A stretch of DNA of 64,000 nucleotides, taken from NCBI RefSeq assembly GCF_016698665.1, contig NZ_CP068046.1, positions 3,100,001 to 3,164,000 of the forward strand, written 5' to 3'. The notes under the pieces were generated by a model that was not told the origin of the DNA, did not search any database, and was given only the letters and a program-made list of their open reading frames with translations. Of the stretch, positions 4,715 to 60,541 are shown piece after piece. Within the stretch, counting starts at the first letter, position 1; the number at the start of each line of letters is the position of its first letter. The DNA is from Devosia rhizoryzae. GTDB taxonomy: Bacteria; Pseudomonadota; Alphaproteobacteria; Rhizobiales; Devosiaceae. The translations under genes were made by a program, and so were the position numbers.

Positions 4715-5028
4715 GAAGGCCAGCACCTCTCGTCGGCGCAGACAGCAACATTGCTGTGACAGCGGCAATAACAGGTTTCGCAACCCCCTTGGTTGCGTGG
4801 CGCAGCCCAATGGCTGTTTTGGCGTCAAGCTGAGGTTGGCAGCTCGTTTTCGGACGGACCAATTCCGACCCCCAGGGACGTCGATCATTAGGCGAACGGC
4901 GATGGCCGCTTTCGGGAATGCCCCAAAGGTCATCTAGTGGCAGGAATGGGGCGCATGGCCGACCAATCGGCTTGTCGATCCTAATTCCACCGCTTCTATC
5001 TGCAATATTGGGCACGTAGACTGAAGTC
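4715..5028. other. 314-bp intergenic gap in the island
   Basis: No convincing coding frame, terminator hairpin or repeat is seen between the helicase stop and the DUF4238 gene. Small open frames here lack ribosome binding sites and protein-like composition. The promoter of the downstream gene presumably lies in the right half, but no clear -35/-10 pair stands out. Confidence 0.4.
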
Positions 5029-30006: not shown

Positions 30007-30022
30007 AGTTTCACGTGAATCG
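30007..30022. promoter_or_regulatory. Weak parS-like sequence upstream of dnaJ
   Basis: AGTTTCACGTGAATCG matches the parS consensus at 13 of 16 positions and keeps the central TTTCACGTGAA core. Confidence 0.3.
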
Positions 30023-51844: not shown

Positions 51845-52675
51845 TCAGTGCACCAAGGTCGCTTCGATTTTCTGGCGCAGGGCTGGGGTGACTTCGGGCG
51901 TCACGCCGAACCAGGCTGCAAAGCCTGGCACGGCTTGATGCAGCAGCATGCCCAAGCCATCGACCGTTTTCAAACCGTGCGCCTGAGCTTCTGCGAGGAG
52001 CGGCGTTACCAGCGGCGTATAAACGATATCGGTCACTAGCGTTGTCTTGGGCAGCAGCGCCATATCTAGCCAGTCGAAGCGGCTTCCATGCATGCCGATC
52101 GAGCTGGTGTTGACGACAAGTCCAATTTGCGGCGCTAGGCGAGCAAAGTCATCAAAGCCATGCGCCTCAAACGGTCCGTCGATATCATCGACCAGCGCCT
52201 GGGCATTGGCGAGTGTACGATTGAGCACATGAACCTTGCCGCCATCTCGCCGCCGCAACGCCACCAGAACGGCCCGCGCCGCGCCGCCGGCACCGATGAT
52301 CATGGCGTCGCGTGGTCCATCCGACCAGCCGGGTGCTTCGGCATCGAGATTGCCCAAAAATCCAAGATAGTCGGTATTAGTGCCCTGCACCTTGCCATCG
52401 CGAACGATCAGCGTGTTGACGGCGCCGATGGTGCGCGCCAGGTCGTCGACACTGTCGCAGAGCGCAAATACCGCCTCCTTGTGCGGAATGGTGACATTGC
52501 CGCCGGCGAACTCGCCCGATCGCAAGCGATCGAAGAATTCCGGAAGATCGGCAGGCGCCACATCGATCGCCTCATAGGTGCCATCGATCCTGTGTTCGTC
52601 GAGCCACGTGCCATGGATCAAGGGCGAGCGCGAATGGGCGATTGGGTGCCCGATAACGAAGGCCTTGGTGGTCAC
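51845..52675 (-). CDS. aroE: Shikimate dehydrogenase
   Basis: VIGHPIAHSRSPLIHGTWL binds shikimate, GNVTIPHKEAVFALCD holds the catalytic Lys and MIIGAGGAARAVLVAL binds NADP. 276 residues. Chorismate pathway. Nine bases downstream of maf. Confidence 0.96.
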   Translation of the reverse strand: MTTKAFVIGHPIAHSRSPLIHGTWLDEHRIDGTYEAIDVAPADLPEFFDRLRSGEFAGGNVTIPHKEAVFALCDSVDDLARTIGAVNTLIVRDGKVQGTNTDYLGFLGNLDAEAPGWSDGPRDAMIIGAGGAARAVLVALRRRDGGKVHVLNRTLANAQALVDDIDGPFEAHGFDDFARLAPQIGLVVNTSSIGMHGSRFDWLDMALLPKTTLVTDIVYTPLVTPLLAEAQAHGLKTVDGLGMLLHQAVPGFAAWFGVTPEVTPALRQKIEATLVH

Positions 52676-52684
52676 GGCAAGATC

Positions 52685-53281
52685 CTAGGCAGAAAACAGC
52701 TCTGGTGCGATATCGCGCAGCGCTGCCAGCAGCGGCAAGAGCGGCAGGCCCAAAATCGTGAAATAATCGCCGCATACAGCTTCAAACAGCCGGATCGATG
52801 GTCCCTCCAGCCGGTAGCTGCCGACGGAATGAAGCACCTCCTCCCCTTCGAGCCGCAACACCTGGTCCCGCTCCTCATCCGAAAAGGTCCGCATGGTGAG
52901 CTCGGCTGTCTGCACATCGGACCAAAGCACCTTTCCATCTCGCACCAGGGTTACCGCAGCGTGAAGGCGATGGGTCTTGCCGCGGAGCCGATCGAGCTGC
53001 CCTGCGGCGTCTGCCATGGTTTCTGGCTTGTGCAACAAGGTCTCGCCCAGCGCCAGGATCTGGTCGGCGCCGATTGCCAGCGCTCCAGAATGGTTAACCG
53101 AGACCGCTCGGGCTTTTGCTTGCGCCAGCAGCTGCGCCACCTCCGCAGCGTCAGCGCCACCGCGCAAAGCCTCTGCCTCGAGCGTACGTTCGTCGACGCT
53201 TGCCGCATCCACGCTGAACGGCAGTTTTGCTTGTTGGAGCAAACTCTTACGGGTAGGAGAACGGGAAGCAAGGATCAGCAT
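52685..53281 (-). CDS. maf: Maf-family nucleoside triphosphate pyrophosphatase
   Basis: LILASRSPTRKSLLQQA at the N-terminus, AIGADQILALGETLLHKP and GDYFTILGLPLLPLL near the C-terminus identify Maf. It probably hydrolyses non-canonical pyrimidine nucleotides. ATG 53281 is chosen over 53299 since the family begins MLILASRSP. It borders the putative origin. Confidence 0.93.
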   Translation of the reverse strand: MLILASRSPTRKSLLQQAKLPFSVDAASVDERTLEAEALRGGADAAEVAQLLAQAKARAVSVNHSGALAIGADQILALGETLLHKPETMADAAGQLDRLRGKTHRLHAAVTLVRDGKVLWSDVQTAELTMRTFSDEERDQVLRLEGEEVLHSVGSYRLEGPSIRLFEAVCGDYFTILGLPLLPLLAALRDIAPELFSA

Positions 53282-53468
53282 GGTGCCTCGTTTTTCCACA
53301 CTGCTATCCCCAGCTCAAGGCCAAGGTGTGATCTCGACTCGTAACTTTCGCCTGTCGCCCGACTTGTTCGACCTAGGTAAGAATTCGTTAACACTTTGGC
53401 CACAGCCGGTCCCCGGATCGAGGGAAGGATAGGTCTGTGGGAAAGCAGTTCCGGCGGCCAAAAGTTAT

Positions 53469-53514
53469 GAGTCCAGACTCGCACAGGCTGAATCGAATCG
53501 TTGACTCGGGAGTC
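53469..53514. promoter_or_regulatory. Cluster of six GANTC (CcrM) sites in the origin region
   Basis: GAGTC, GACTC, GAATC, GAATC, GACTC and GAGTC begin at 53469, 53476, 53490, 53495, 53503 and 53510. A random sequence would have about one such site per 256 bases. Confidence 0.85.
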
Positions 53515-53520
53515 GCCCGG

Positions 53521-53536
53521 TTAATCTCTCGTTAAC
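53521..53536. promoter_or_regulatory. CtrA box TTAA-N7-TTAAC in the origin region
   Basis: TTAATCTCTCGTTAAC is an exact match and begins seven bases after the GANTC cluster. CtrA binding at such sites blocks replication initiation in Caulobacter. Confidence 0.75.
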
Positions 53537-53721
53537 TATTTCGTTTTCGATGACCGCGATCGCTCTCGCAAAATGATTCACACCTCGTTAACCAAAGCCC
53601 TGCGCGCTCGTGTCACCACTAGGGCGATTGTGGATCATCATGAATTGGCGCAAGACACCGCTATGAAGATAATAAAGCGAAGCAAGAAAGACTCTTATTG
53701 GGTTTTGAAGGGGTCTTTTCG

Positions 53722-54756
53722 ATGAGCACCGCGGTTCACAAACCAATGCTCGCGACCGTGCTCGGTGAGCGCCAGGAACGGCCTCCCGTTTGGATCATGC
53801 GCCAGGCTGGGCGCTACCTGCCGGAATATCGTGAGACGCGGAAGCAGGCGAAGAACTTCCTCGAGCTTTGCTATACGCCCGAGCTTGCCGTCGAGGTAAC
53901 GCTGCAGCCGCTGCGGCGCTTTGATCTTGATGCCTCCATTCTCTTTTCCGACATCCTCGTCGTTCCCGATGCCCTGGGCCAACCTGTGCGCTTTGAAACC
54001 GGCGAGGGGCCGATCCTTGATCCGGTGGATGAGACCACGATCCATGGGCTTGAGAAGGGAAGGGCTCTCGATCATCTTGCGCCGGTCCTGGAAACGGTGC
54101 GGCGGCTACGAGCTGCCATCAAGCCTGAACAGACGCTGATTGGCTTCTGTGGCGCTCCCTGGACCGTGGCGACCTATATGCTGGGCGGCCGCGGCTCGCC
54201 GGATCAGTGGGTGGCGCGCAAATTCGCTCTCCAGCATCCGCAAGCCTTCGCCAAGCTCATGGATATCCTGGTCGAGACGAGCGTCGATTACCTCACCGCC
54301 CAGTTCGAAGCCGGCGCCGACGTGGTGCAGCTTTTTGAAAGCTGGGCGCTCAACCTCGATGACGCCGCCTTTGCGCTTCAGGTCATGGAGCCGAACCGCC
54401 GTATCGTCCAAGGCCTGCGTGCGCGTATCCCCAATGCGCCGGTTATCGGCTTTCCGCGCGGTGCGGCCGGCAACCTGTCGCGCTATGCGGCCTATACCGG
54501 CGTAAACGTTCTGGGCATCGACTACGCCACGCCGCTCGATTTCGTCCGCTCGGCTCTGCCGAACACGCTGCCTGTGCAGGGCAATCTCGATCCGCTGCGG
54601 CTGGTGGTGGGCGGCAAGGCCATGACCAGCCAGGTCGACAGGATTTTGACCGCTTTTGCCGATCGCCCGCATATCTTCAACCTGGGCCACGGCATCGTGC
54701 CGGAAACGCCGATCGCCCATGTCGAGCAGCTGATCGCTCGCGTCAAAGGCCGCTAA
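53722..54756 (+). CDS. hemE: Uroporphyrinogen decarboxylase
   Basis: RPPVWIMRQAGRYLPEYRE is the family signature; GFCGAPWTVATYML is the second. 344 residues from ATG 53722. A short upstream extension starting with TTG is not conserved. Makes coproporphyrinogen III. It lies beside the origin and is followed by hemJ, another heme gene. Confidence 0.97.
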   Translation: MSTAVHKPMLATVLGERQERPPVWIMRQAGRYLPEYRETRKQAKNFLELCYTPELAVEVTLQPLRRFDLDASILFSDILVVPDALGQPVRFETGEGPILDPVDETTIHGLEKGRALDHLAPVLETVRRLRAAIKPEQTLIGFCGAPWTVATYMLGGRGSPDQWVARKFALQHPQAFAKLMDILVETSVDYLTAQFEAGADVVQLFESWALNLDDAAFALQVMEPNRRIVQGLRARIPNAPVIGFPRGAAGNLSRYAAYTGVNVLGIDYATPLDFVRSALPNTLPVQGNLDPLRLVVGGKAMTSQVDRILTAFADRPHIFNLGHGIVPETPIAHVEQLIARVKGR

Positions 54757-57989: not shown

Positions 57990-58005
57990 TGATTCACGTG
58001 AAACA
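57990..58005. promoter_or_regulatory. parS site upstream of mnmG
   Basis: TGATTCACGTGAAACA, 15 of 16 matches, in the 82-bp gap between mnmE and mnmG. Confidence 0.8.
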
Positions 58006-59900: not shown

Positions 59901-60541
59901 TGGCTTCGGCAATTGCCTCCTACGCACCTTGTCTGTCCAGATCGATCGATGAGGTGGAGCATGATCTGGAATCCTATGCTCAACTGCTTCGCAAATGGCA
60001 GCAGGTGCAGAATCTTGTTTCACGTGAAACATTGAGCGATGTCTGGACCAGGCACTTCGGGGACAGCCTTCAAGTCTTGCGACATCTTCTGCCAGACGAC
60101 GTGAACTTCATGGACTTGGGCAGTGGCGGCGGCTTGCCCGCAATTCCCATGGCTGTTGCGAGCAAGGGAACGAACCGGCGGTTTGTTCTCGTTGAACCGA
60201 CCGCACGCAAGGTTAGCTTCTTGCGCACGGTGTCGCGTGAGCTTGCTCTCACAACCACGGTTATCGGTTCACGCAGTGACGACATTGATTCACGTGAAAC
60301 ACCTGTTCCAGATGTCATCACTTCCCGTGCACTGGCTGCCTTGCCGCAGTTGGCAGCATGGATGAAGCCCTTTTTTGGTCCGCAAACCCGAGCTTTGCTG
60401 CATAAAGGCCGGGAACATGTTGAAGAGCTCAAGGAAACACGTGCGTCCTGGGAATTTGACGTGTTAATACATCCCAGTGATACCGATCCGAGTGGTGTCA
60501 TTCTCGAGATTTCGAATCTCCGTTCGAAATCAGCGCGTTAG
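59900..60541 (+). CDS. rsmG: 16S rRNA (guanine-527-N7)-methyltransferase
   Basis: FMDLGSGGGLPAIPMAV is the SAM-binding motif; LVSRETLSDVWTRHFGDS is the conserved N-terminal segment. 213 residues. Two parS sites lie within the gene. Conserved mnmG-rsmG-parA-parB order. Confidence 0.95.
   Translation: MASAIASYAPCLSRSIDEVEHDLESYAQLLRKWQQVQNLVSRETLSDVWTRHFGDSLQVLRHLLPDDVNFMDLGSGGGLPAIPMAVASKGTNRRFVLVEPTARKVSFLRTVSRELALTTTVIGSRSDDIDSRETPVPDVITSRALAALPQLAAWMKPFFGPQTRALLHKGREHVEELKETRASWEFDVLIHPSDTDPSGVILEISNLRSKSAR
60016..60031. promoter_or_regulatory. Perfect parS site in rsmG
   Basis: TGTTTCACGTGAAACA is identical to the consensus ParB site; about 0.5 kb upstream of parA. Confidence 0.92.
60286..60301. 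promoter_or_regulatory. parS site in rsmG, second copy
   Basis: TGATTCACGTGAAACA, 15 of 16 matches. Confidence 0.8.

Follow-up and report, generated by a model that had tools for sequence, protein, structure and literature searches.

A largely conserved GANTC array in the maf-hemE gap of Devosia, a candidate hemE-linked replication origin

The chromosomal replication origin of Caulobacter crescentus, Cori, sits between hemE and COG1806 (PMC1914354). The second flank of hemE-linked origins is variable, and flanks other than COG1806 are described for alphaproteobacteria in the same source. Cori contains DnaA boxes including TGATCCACA, an AT-rich region and five CtrA boxes (PMC8959179), and several GANTC sites are reported for Caulobacter origins (Shaheen 2009, as cited in PMC3973325). 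For Azorhizobium, the polarity of the octamer GGGNAGGG and GC skew placed the origin in a gene cluster common to several alphaproteobacteria (PMC2443382). The passages describing it do not name hemE. An origin gene cluster of this kind is known from Azorhizobium, Sinorhizobium and other Hyphomicrobiales, the order to which Devosia belongs.

GANTC is the target of the methylase CcrM. CcrM becomes active late in the cycle of Caulobacter and Agrobacterium, and GANTC sites close to the origin remain hemimethylated up to that point (PMC3973325, PMC11514494). CcrM was described as not required for initiation control in Caulobacter (PMC3973325), while ori2 of Agrobacterium is affected by CcrM and GcrA, mostly via repC expression; the authors consider that hemimethylation may also act in a SeqA-like way (PMC11514494). 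This origin, located on the repABC chromid of A. tumefaciens, resembles the Devosia region described here in that origin and promoters are GANTC-rich; it differs in being RepC-dependent, with the effect traced mainly to repABC/repE transcription (PMC11514494). The GATC array of Escherichia coli oriC, which is read by the Dam/SeqA system, is a second parallel, as it also provides dense adenine-methylation sites at a DnaA origin. Unlike the situation in E. coli, hemimethylation of a GANTC array would be passive and long, given the late action of CcrM in those species that have been studied.

The maf-hemE gap and its GANTC sites

The genome of Devosia rhizoryzae (G000) consists of one contig of 3,524,878 bp. 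The analysed stretch of 64,000 bp, termed the window, represents its bases 3,100,001-3,164,000, and coordinates refer to the window unless stated otherwise. The gene order is dnaQ-coaE-aroE-maf, then the gap, then hemE-hemJ-rho-mnmE-mnmG, which places the gap next to hemE in the conserved cluster of hemE-linked alphaproteobacterial origins. The oriC of Sinorhizobium meliloti is located beside hemE. The nearest named locus found is that of Devosia aurantiaca (97% for HemE).

52685..53281, minus strand: maf-like nucleotide pyrophosphatase; family scores are below the curated cut-offs (226.8 of 269; 114.5 of 117.15)
53282..53721, no strand: maf-hemE intergenic gap (440 bp), proposed oriC, based on gene calls, GANTC content and a DnaA-box cluster
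53722..54756, plus strand: hemE, uroporphyrinogen decarboxylase, based on gene calls, with its ATG at 53722

As an ATG at 53281 can serve as the start of maf (MLILASRSPTRK), the gap extends from 53282 to 53721 and not, as in the original prediction, from 53300. The same gene context as at Caulobacter Cori had been proposed. This holds for the hemE flank, while the other flank is maf here and COG1806 in Caulobacter.

GANTC sites start at 53336, 53469, 53476, 53490, 53495, 53503, 53510, 53575 and 53690. The proposed array of nine sites is thus confirmed, in 359 bp, with six of the sites within 53469-53514 (46 bp).

53336..53340: GANTC site, shared by 30 of 40 aligned sequences
53469..53480: GAGTC-CA-GACTC pair; the site at 53469 occurs in 2 of 40 (D. 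rhizoryzae itself and D. aurantiaca), that at 53476 in 4 of 40
53490..53494: GANTC site, 12 of 40
53495..53514: core GAATC-N3-GACTC-N2-GAGTC with three GANTC, found in register in 29, 34 and 23 of 40 (53495, 53503 and 53510)
53575..53591: GATTC and, overlapping with it, a degenerate CtrA box (TTCA-N7-TTAA), as seen in the alignment
53690..53694: hemE-proximal GANTC, 36 of 40, in two registers and with all four N bases

The array is not expected by chance. None of 5000 dinucleotide shuffles of 53300-53721 reached nine GANTC (mean 2.56, largest 8), none placed six within 46 bp, and a Poisson estimate from the window background is p ~2e-8. The window as a whole is poor in GANTC (103 found, 307 expected from shuffles), and density in the genome is 0.95 per kb (547 kb sampled). 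Among 113 sampled intergenic gaps of at least 150 bp, the maf-hemE gap is the richest in GANTC, 15-fold above the average of the other 112 (1.5 per kb), with 8 GANTC counted in the 353 bp which a crude ORF caller left as gap. The second-richest is the gap before dnaA, a gene 244 kb from hemE. It contains six GANTC within 224 bp, which lie 285-504 bp upstream of the dnaA start (positions 4779-5002 of locus L096, genome about 2,908,779-2,909,002), and its neighbours, named by eye, are rpsT and dnaN. Of six dnaA loci, two (L265, L267) are cut by a contig end; in the four that have their full flank, 6, 6, 5 and 5 GANTC are found within 600 bp upstream of dnaA. No report of the maf-hemE array was found in the open-licence literature on Devosia GANTC or on CcrM, hemE and the origin, which is weak evidence of novelty.

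Conservation of the array and GANTC sites upstream of hemE

The region upstream of hemE was aligned for 40 distinct sequences including the window, mostly from Devosia, with Arsenicitalea, Pelagibacterium and some MAGs, which carry other labels. Seven identical loci, one locus without upstream DNA (L056) and loci with a HemE identity below 67% had been left out. As the 40 rows are partly close kin, the counts represent non-independent events. On average, 5.5 GANTC occur per 440 bp (range 1 to 9), whereas seven control palindromes built from the same letters average 0.6-2.5 in these sequences. Five positions are recurrent (53336, 53495, 53503, 53510 and 53690/53688), and half of the sequences (20 of 40) have the complete triple GANTC-N3-GANTC-N2-GANTC. 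Spacing from the TTGACTC of the core to the TTAA of the CtrA box is 20 bp in 31 sequences and 21 bp in two, with seven having no such arrangement.

The most informative site is the one nearest to hemE. It reads GACTC in 27 sequences, GAGTC in 5, GATTC in 3 and GAATC in 1, is missing in 4, and shifts its register by 2 bp. Because GANTC is kept despite this shift and with all four N bases, we conclude that the CcrM motif itself is under selection. At 53336, 53495 and 53503 the N base is nearly invariant, and since it hardly varies, these sites may also be read by another protein. At 53575, many of the other sequences have a full TTAA-N7-TTAA without GANTC, which represents a trade-off between GANTC and a second CtrA box.

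Absence of the array from close relatives, raised with the original prediction as an argument against it, is not what we find, as the array is conserved in most of them and thin in some. All three core GANTC are missing from four of the 40 sequences (L024, L025, L049, L050). In G019, the genome of L025, a single GANTC persists in the gap, and the dnaA cluster is retained. Only three GANTC in all occur in the gap of G004 (L005), which is not among the densest GANTC windows there.

For a view across the order, 91 loci were used (90 of 119 order genomes with hemE, plus one more locus). GANTC occurs at 6.3 per kb in the 700 bp before hemE and at 1.4 per kb in the rest of the same loci. Relative to shuffles, the observed/expected ratio is 1.20 before the hemE start and 0.22 after it. 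As the upstream value is modest and is matched by two control palindromes, AGNCT (1.19) and ACNGT (1.25), what really sets the upstream region apart is that depletion is missing there, together with the position of the sites. A GANTC at -80 to -15 of hemE is present in 75 of 91 loci; control windows of these loci contain one in 127 of 1564 cases after the hemE start and in 44 of 273 cases at -700 to -500.

GcrA, a known reader of GANTC, and the RAMA domain of CcrM-type enzymes were found in all 25 genomes searched; a CcrM-type enzyme is predicted for D. rhizoryzae from its match to the RAMA domain family.

Origin-like features, parS sites and strand polarity

Besides the array, the gap contains further elements that are expected at an origin of this type.

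53292..53300, plus strand: DnaA-like box TTTTCCACA, kept in nearly all alignment rows (by eye)
53521..53535: CtrA box TTAATCTCTCGTTAA (TTAA-N7-TTAA), exact motif match
53629..53637, minus strand: DnaA G-box-like site TGATCCACA, exact match, its TGTGG part kept in nearly all rows (by eye)
53640..53729: AT-rich stretch, a candidate unwinding element, with 50-bp windows of up to 66% AT (peak at 53660-53709) compared with 39% for the window

Both an exact CtrA box and a G-box-like DnaA site had been proposed for the gap, and both are there; the latter resembles the sites named G-box in Caulobacter. A full CtrA box occurs in 39 of 40 sequences and is 28-fold over expectation in the order set. DnaA boxes with up to two mismatches were counted per 450 bp in 324-400 kb of each of four Devosia chromosomes (324 kb in D. 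rhizoryzae). The gap contains 8 boxes in D. rhizoryzae, 10 in G010, 6 in G004 and 6 in G007; it is the top cluster in the first three and is tied in G007 with a cluster at -69.6 kb. In a stricter scan (up to one mismatch, 600 bp), the gap ranks first in G007 and joint first in D. rhizoryzae, while it falls outside the top windows in G010 and G004. No strict IHF consensus WATCAANNNNTTR was found in 53200-53800, where degenerate sites are possible.

Compared with Cori, the Devosia gap thus shares the hemE flank, DnaA boxes including TGATCCACA, CtrA boxes and an AT-rich region. It differs in the maf flank, in having one full CtrA box in the window, in the lack of a strict IHF consensus in the scanned region, and in six GANTC packed into 46 bp, among them a core of fixed spacing that adjoins the CtrA box.

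Sites resembling parS surround the gap. All nine parS-like sites of the genome with up to one mismatch fall in 3.017-3.195 Mb, among them the following four in the window.

30008..30021: parS-like variant GATTCACGTGAAAC, motif scan
57991..58004, plus strand: parS variant GATTCACGTGAAAC with GANTC inside, motif scan (genome 3157991)
60017..60030: perfect parS GTTTCACGTGAAAC, motif scan (genome 3160017)
60287..60300, plus strand: parS variant GATTCACGTGAAAC with GANTC inside, motif scan (genome 3160287)

All seven one-mismatch sites among the nine are GATTCACGTGAAAC, in which a T-to-A change creates a GANTC. This variant is found in 56 of 120 order genomes, C or G at the same position in 16 of 120, and a double variant in none of the 120. 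A sample of 299 from the phylum contains 28 with the variant, of which 21 are from this order and 7 from outside the class, with none in other orders of the class. Its prevalence may reflect tolerance by ParB or a selected methylation site. For the parS locus of Caulobacter, GANTC methylation was described as not significantly changed on overexpression of methylases (PMC5172544). Sites were seen at -56 to +16 kb of hemE in Devosia relatives and at +4 to +17 kb in G075, which represents a sister genus.

Strand polarity gives a different picture. That GC skew might place the origin elsewhere had been named as an argument against the original prediction, and the displaced switch of GGGNAGGG is a real contrary signal. 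The octamer is strongly polar in the two arms of the genome (55:9 and 11:53), and in all four Devosia chromosomes its switch is found on the maf side of the gap at a distance of 65-147 kb, which sets them apart from the Azorhizobium-type cluster.

G000: switch at -147 to -145 kb from hemE, score 48 of 78; 0 at hemE
G007: switch at -77 to -74 kb, score 63 of 85; 29 at hemE
G004: switch at -72 to -65 kb, score 52 of 118; 18 at hemE
G010: switch at -90 to -81 kb, score 37 of 151; 5 at hemE
G075: best switch at -11 to -3 kb, score 18 of 36; 16 at hemE

The octamer is uninformative in the outgroup G141 (6 of 30), and both raw and gene-corrected GC skew are too noisy to place the origin. From genome position 3,005 to 3,153 kb, left of the gap, polarity is that of the right arm, and the same applies to the corresponding 65-147 kb in G004, G007 and G010. 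Around hemE of G010 (L204-L223), GGGNAGGG occurs in both orientations close together at many places, like a palindromic repeat family.

The genome of D. rhizoryzae has about 75 kb at -121 to -46 kb (genome about 3,032-3,108 kb) that the aligned parts of G004, G007 and G010 do not contain. This segment is probably an insertion; it splits the parS domain, with parS at -123 and -34.7 kb. When these extra 75 kb are taken into account, the switch positions of the four Devosia roughly agree.

We consider rearrangement to be the likeliest cause of the displacement. The Devosia segment from -66 to -4 kb is inverted relative to G075, two genes excepted, so that the switch is near a rearrangement junction; the synteny breakpoint is no more than about 4-16 kb away. 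The simplest account would be an inversion that has one of its ends next to the origin. Five genes of G141 have the Devosia orientation, which speaks against Devosia being the inverted lineage, but G141 is too distant to settle this. The inversion would account for the displacement and not for its persistence. Aligned genome-specific octamers left of the gap are 41 plus to 2 minus, compared with 32 to 4 right of hemE, and the plus polarity left of the gap looks maintained. Octamers with one of opposite orientation within 60 bp were excluded from this count and included in the switch scan.

Proposed function and alternative explanations

The maf-hemE gap is probably the oriC of this chromosome. 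This is based on its linkage to hemE, the DnaA-box cluster, the CtrA box present in nearly all sequences, the AT-rich hemE side and the surrounding parS sites. The original prediction of an origin is supported to this extent, with the displaced switch standing against it. From the array, its conservation, the CcrM-type and GcrA-family genes and the DnaA- and CtrA-like sites we infer a series of functional steps. With moderate confidence we propose that the gap is a DnaA-dependent oriC of the hemE-linked alphaproteobacterial type, and that its selected GANTC array reports firing mainly via GcrA-dependent transcription. DnaA would bind the flanking boxes and melt the AT-rich hemE side. By analogy with Caulobacter, CtrA on the box beside the GANTC core would keep the origin off outside S phase. 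The array would serve as a selected CcrM mark that is hemimethylated for most of S phase; such long hemimethylation is expected from the early copying of the origin and from the late action of CcrM in the cell cycle of species studied so far. In this state it would mark the origin as fired, and the signal would be passed on mainly by transcription that depends on GcrA, both at the origin and at dnaA; a direct effect on the binding of DnaA or CtrA would be at most minor. The transcription route is favoured over the direct effect of methylation state on initiation suggested by the original prediction, because CcrM is not needed for initiation control in Caulobacter and because the effect on ori2 of Agrobacterium is mostly via repC expression.

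A more direct role of methylation would be reminiscent of Dam/SeqA. The fixed-spacing core beside the CtrA box would be read while hemimethylated and would hold the fired origin off until CcrM acts, and the matching dnaA array and the GANTC-bearing parS sites would couple the same clock to segregation. Dense, largely conserved methylation sites at the proposed origin, as in the Dam/SeqA system, are found here, but we regard this analogy as rather improbable. It is somewhat easier to imagine, while still unlikely, that the gap is oriC and that its GANTC sites serve only a GcrA/CcrM-regulated promoter, either of hemE or of a CcnA-like origin RNA, without influence on initiation. Throughout the order the commonest GANTC position is indeed the one nearest hemE, GcrA is present in all genomes searched, the TTGACTC of the core resembles a -35 hexamer, and the Caulobacter origin transcribes CcnA, as described in PMC8959179. 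Against this, inspection by eye did not reveal a credible -10 element at the usual distance downstream of TTGACT, no Rfam match with E up to 1 was obtained in 52600-54200, and nine sites exceed, in our opinion, the apparent need of one promoter. An RNA family search of six neighbouring 20-kb stretches returned one tRNA only. That the sites are neutral, with GANTC merely less depleted in non-coding DNA and clustered by chance, we consider highly improbable. Enrichment of GANTC in intergenic DNA is common in alphaproteobacteria (PMC8116508), but the gap is far above other sampled gaps of the same genome, GANTC is retained through changes of register and N base, and the seven control palindromes are sparser in the gap.

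The displaced switch could also be taken literally. The true bidirectional origin would then coincide with this switch, on the maf side and some 146 kb from the gap in D. rhizoryzae and 65-90 kb in relatives, and the gap would be a regulatory or centromere-side element. The displacement in all four Devosia and the strong polarity of the two arms agree with this, and in G007 the DnaA-like cluster that equals the one in the gap (6 boxes) is only 4-7 kb from the switch. However, no DnaA box with up to one mismatch is found in the switch interval of D. rhizoryzae or G004, and the two single boxes in the interval of G007 and the three in that of G010 do not form a dense cluster. The nearby synteny breakpoint and the inversion between switch and gap relative to G075, which itself switches next to hemE, offer another explanation. 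In addition, it is to this gene cluster that origins of the order are commonly assigned (PMC2443382), and the origins of Caulobacter and Rickettsia are described as lying beside hemE (PMC1914354). All this makes an origin at the switch a doubtful option. We also scanned ten ORFs at the switch (L194) and found nothing origin-like among them; three match families (miaB, murJ, glnD) and seven have no match at E 1e-20.

If the gap is the origin, polarity-based origin calls can err by tens of kilobases or more. Control of a DnaA-type alphaproteobacterial origin by CcrM is absent in Caulobacter, yet CcrM and GcrA influence the repABC-type ori2 of Agrobacterium. Devosia has a dense, largely conserved array at what would be a DnaA-type origin and a second array before dnaA, and with these two arrays a few base changes could test whether CcrM controls such an origin.
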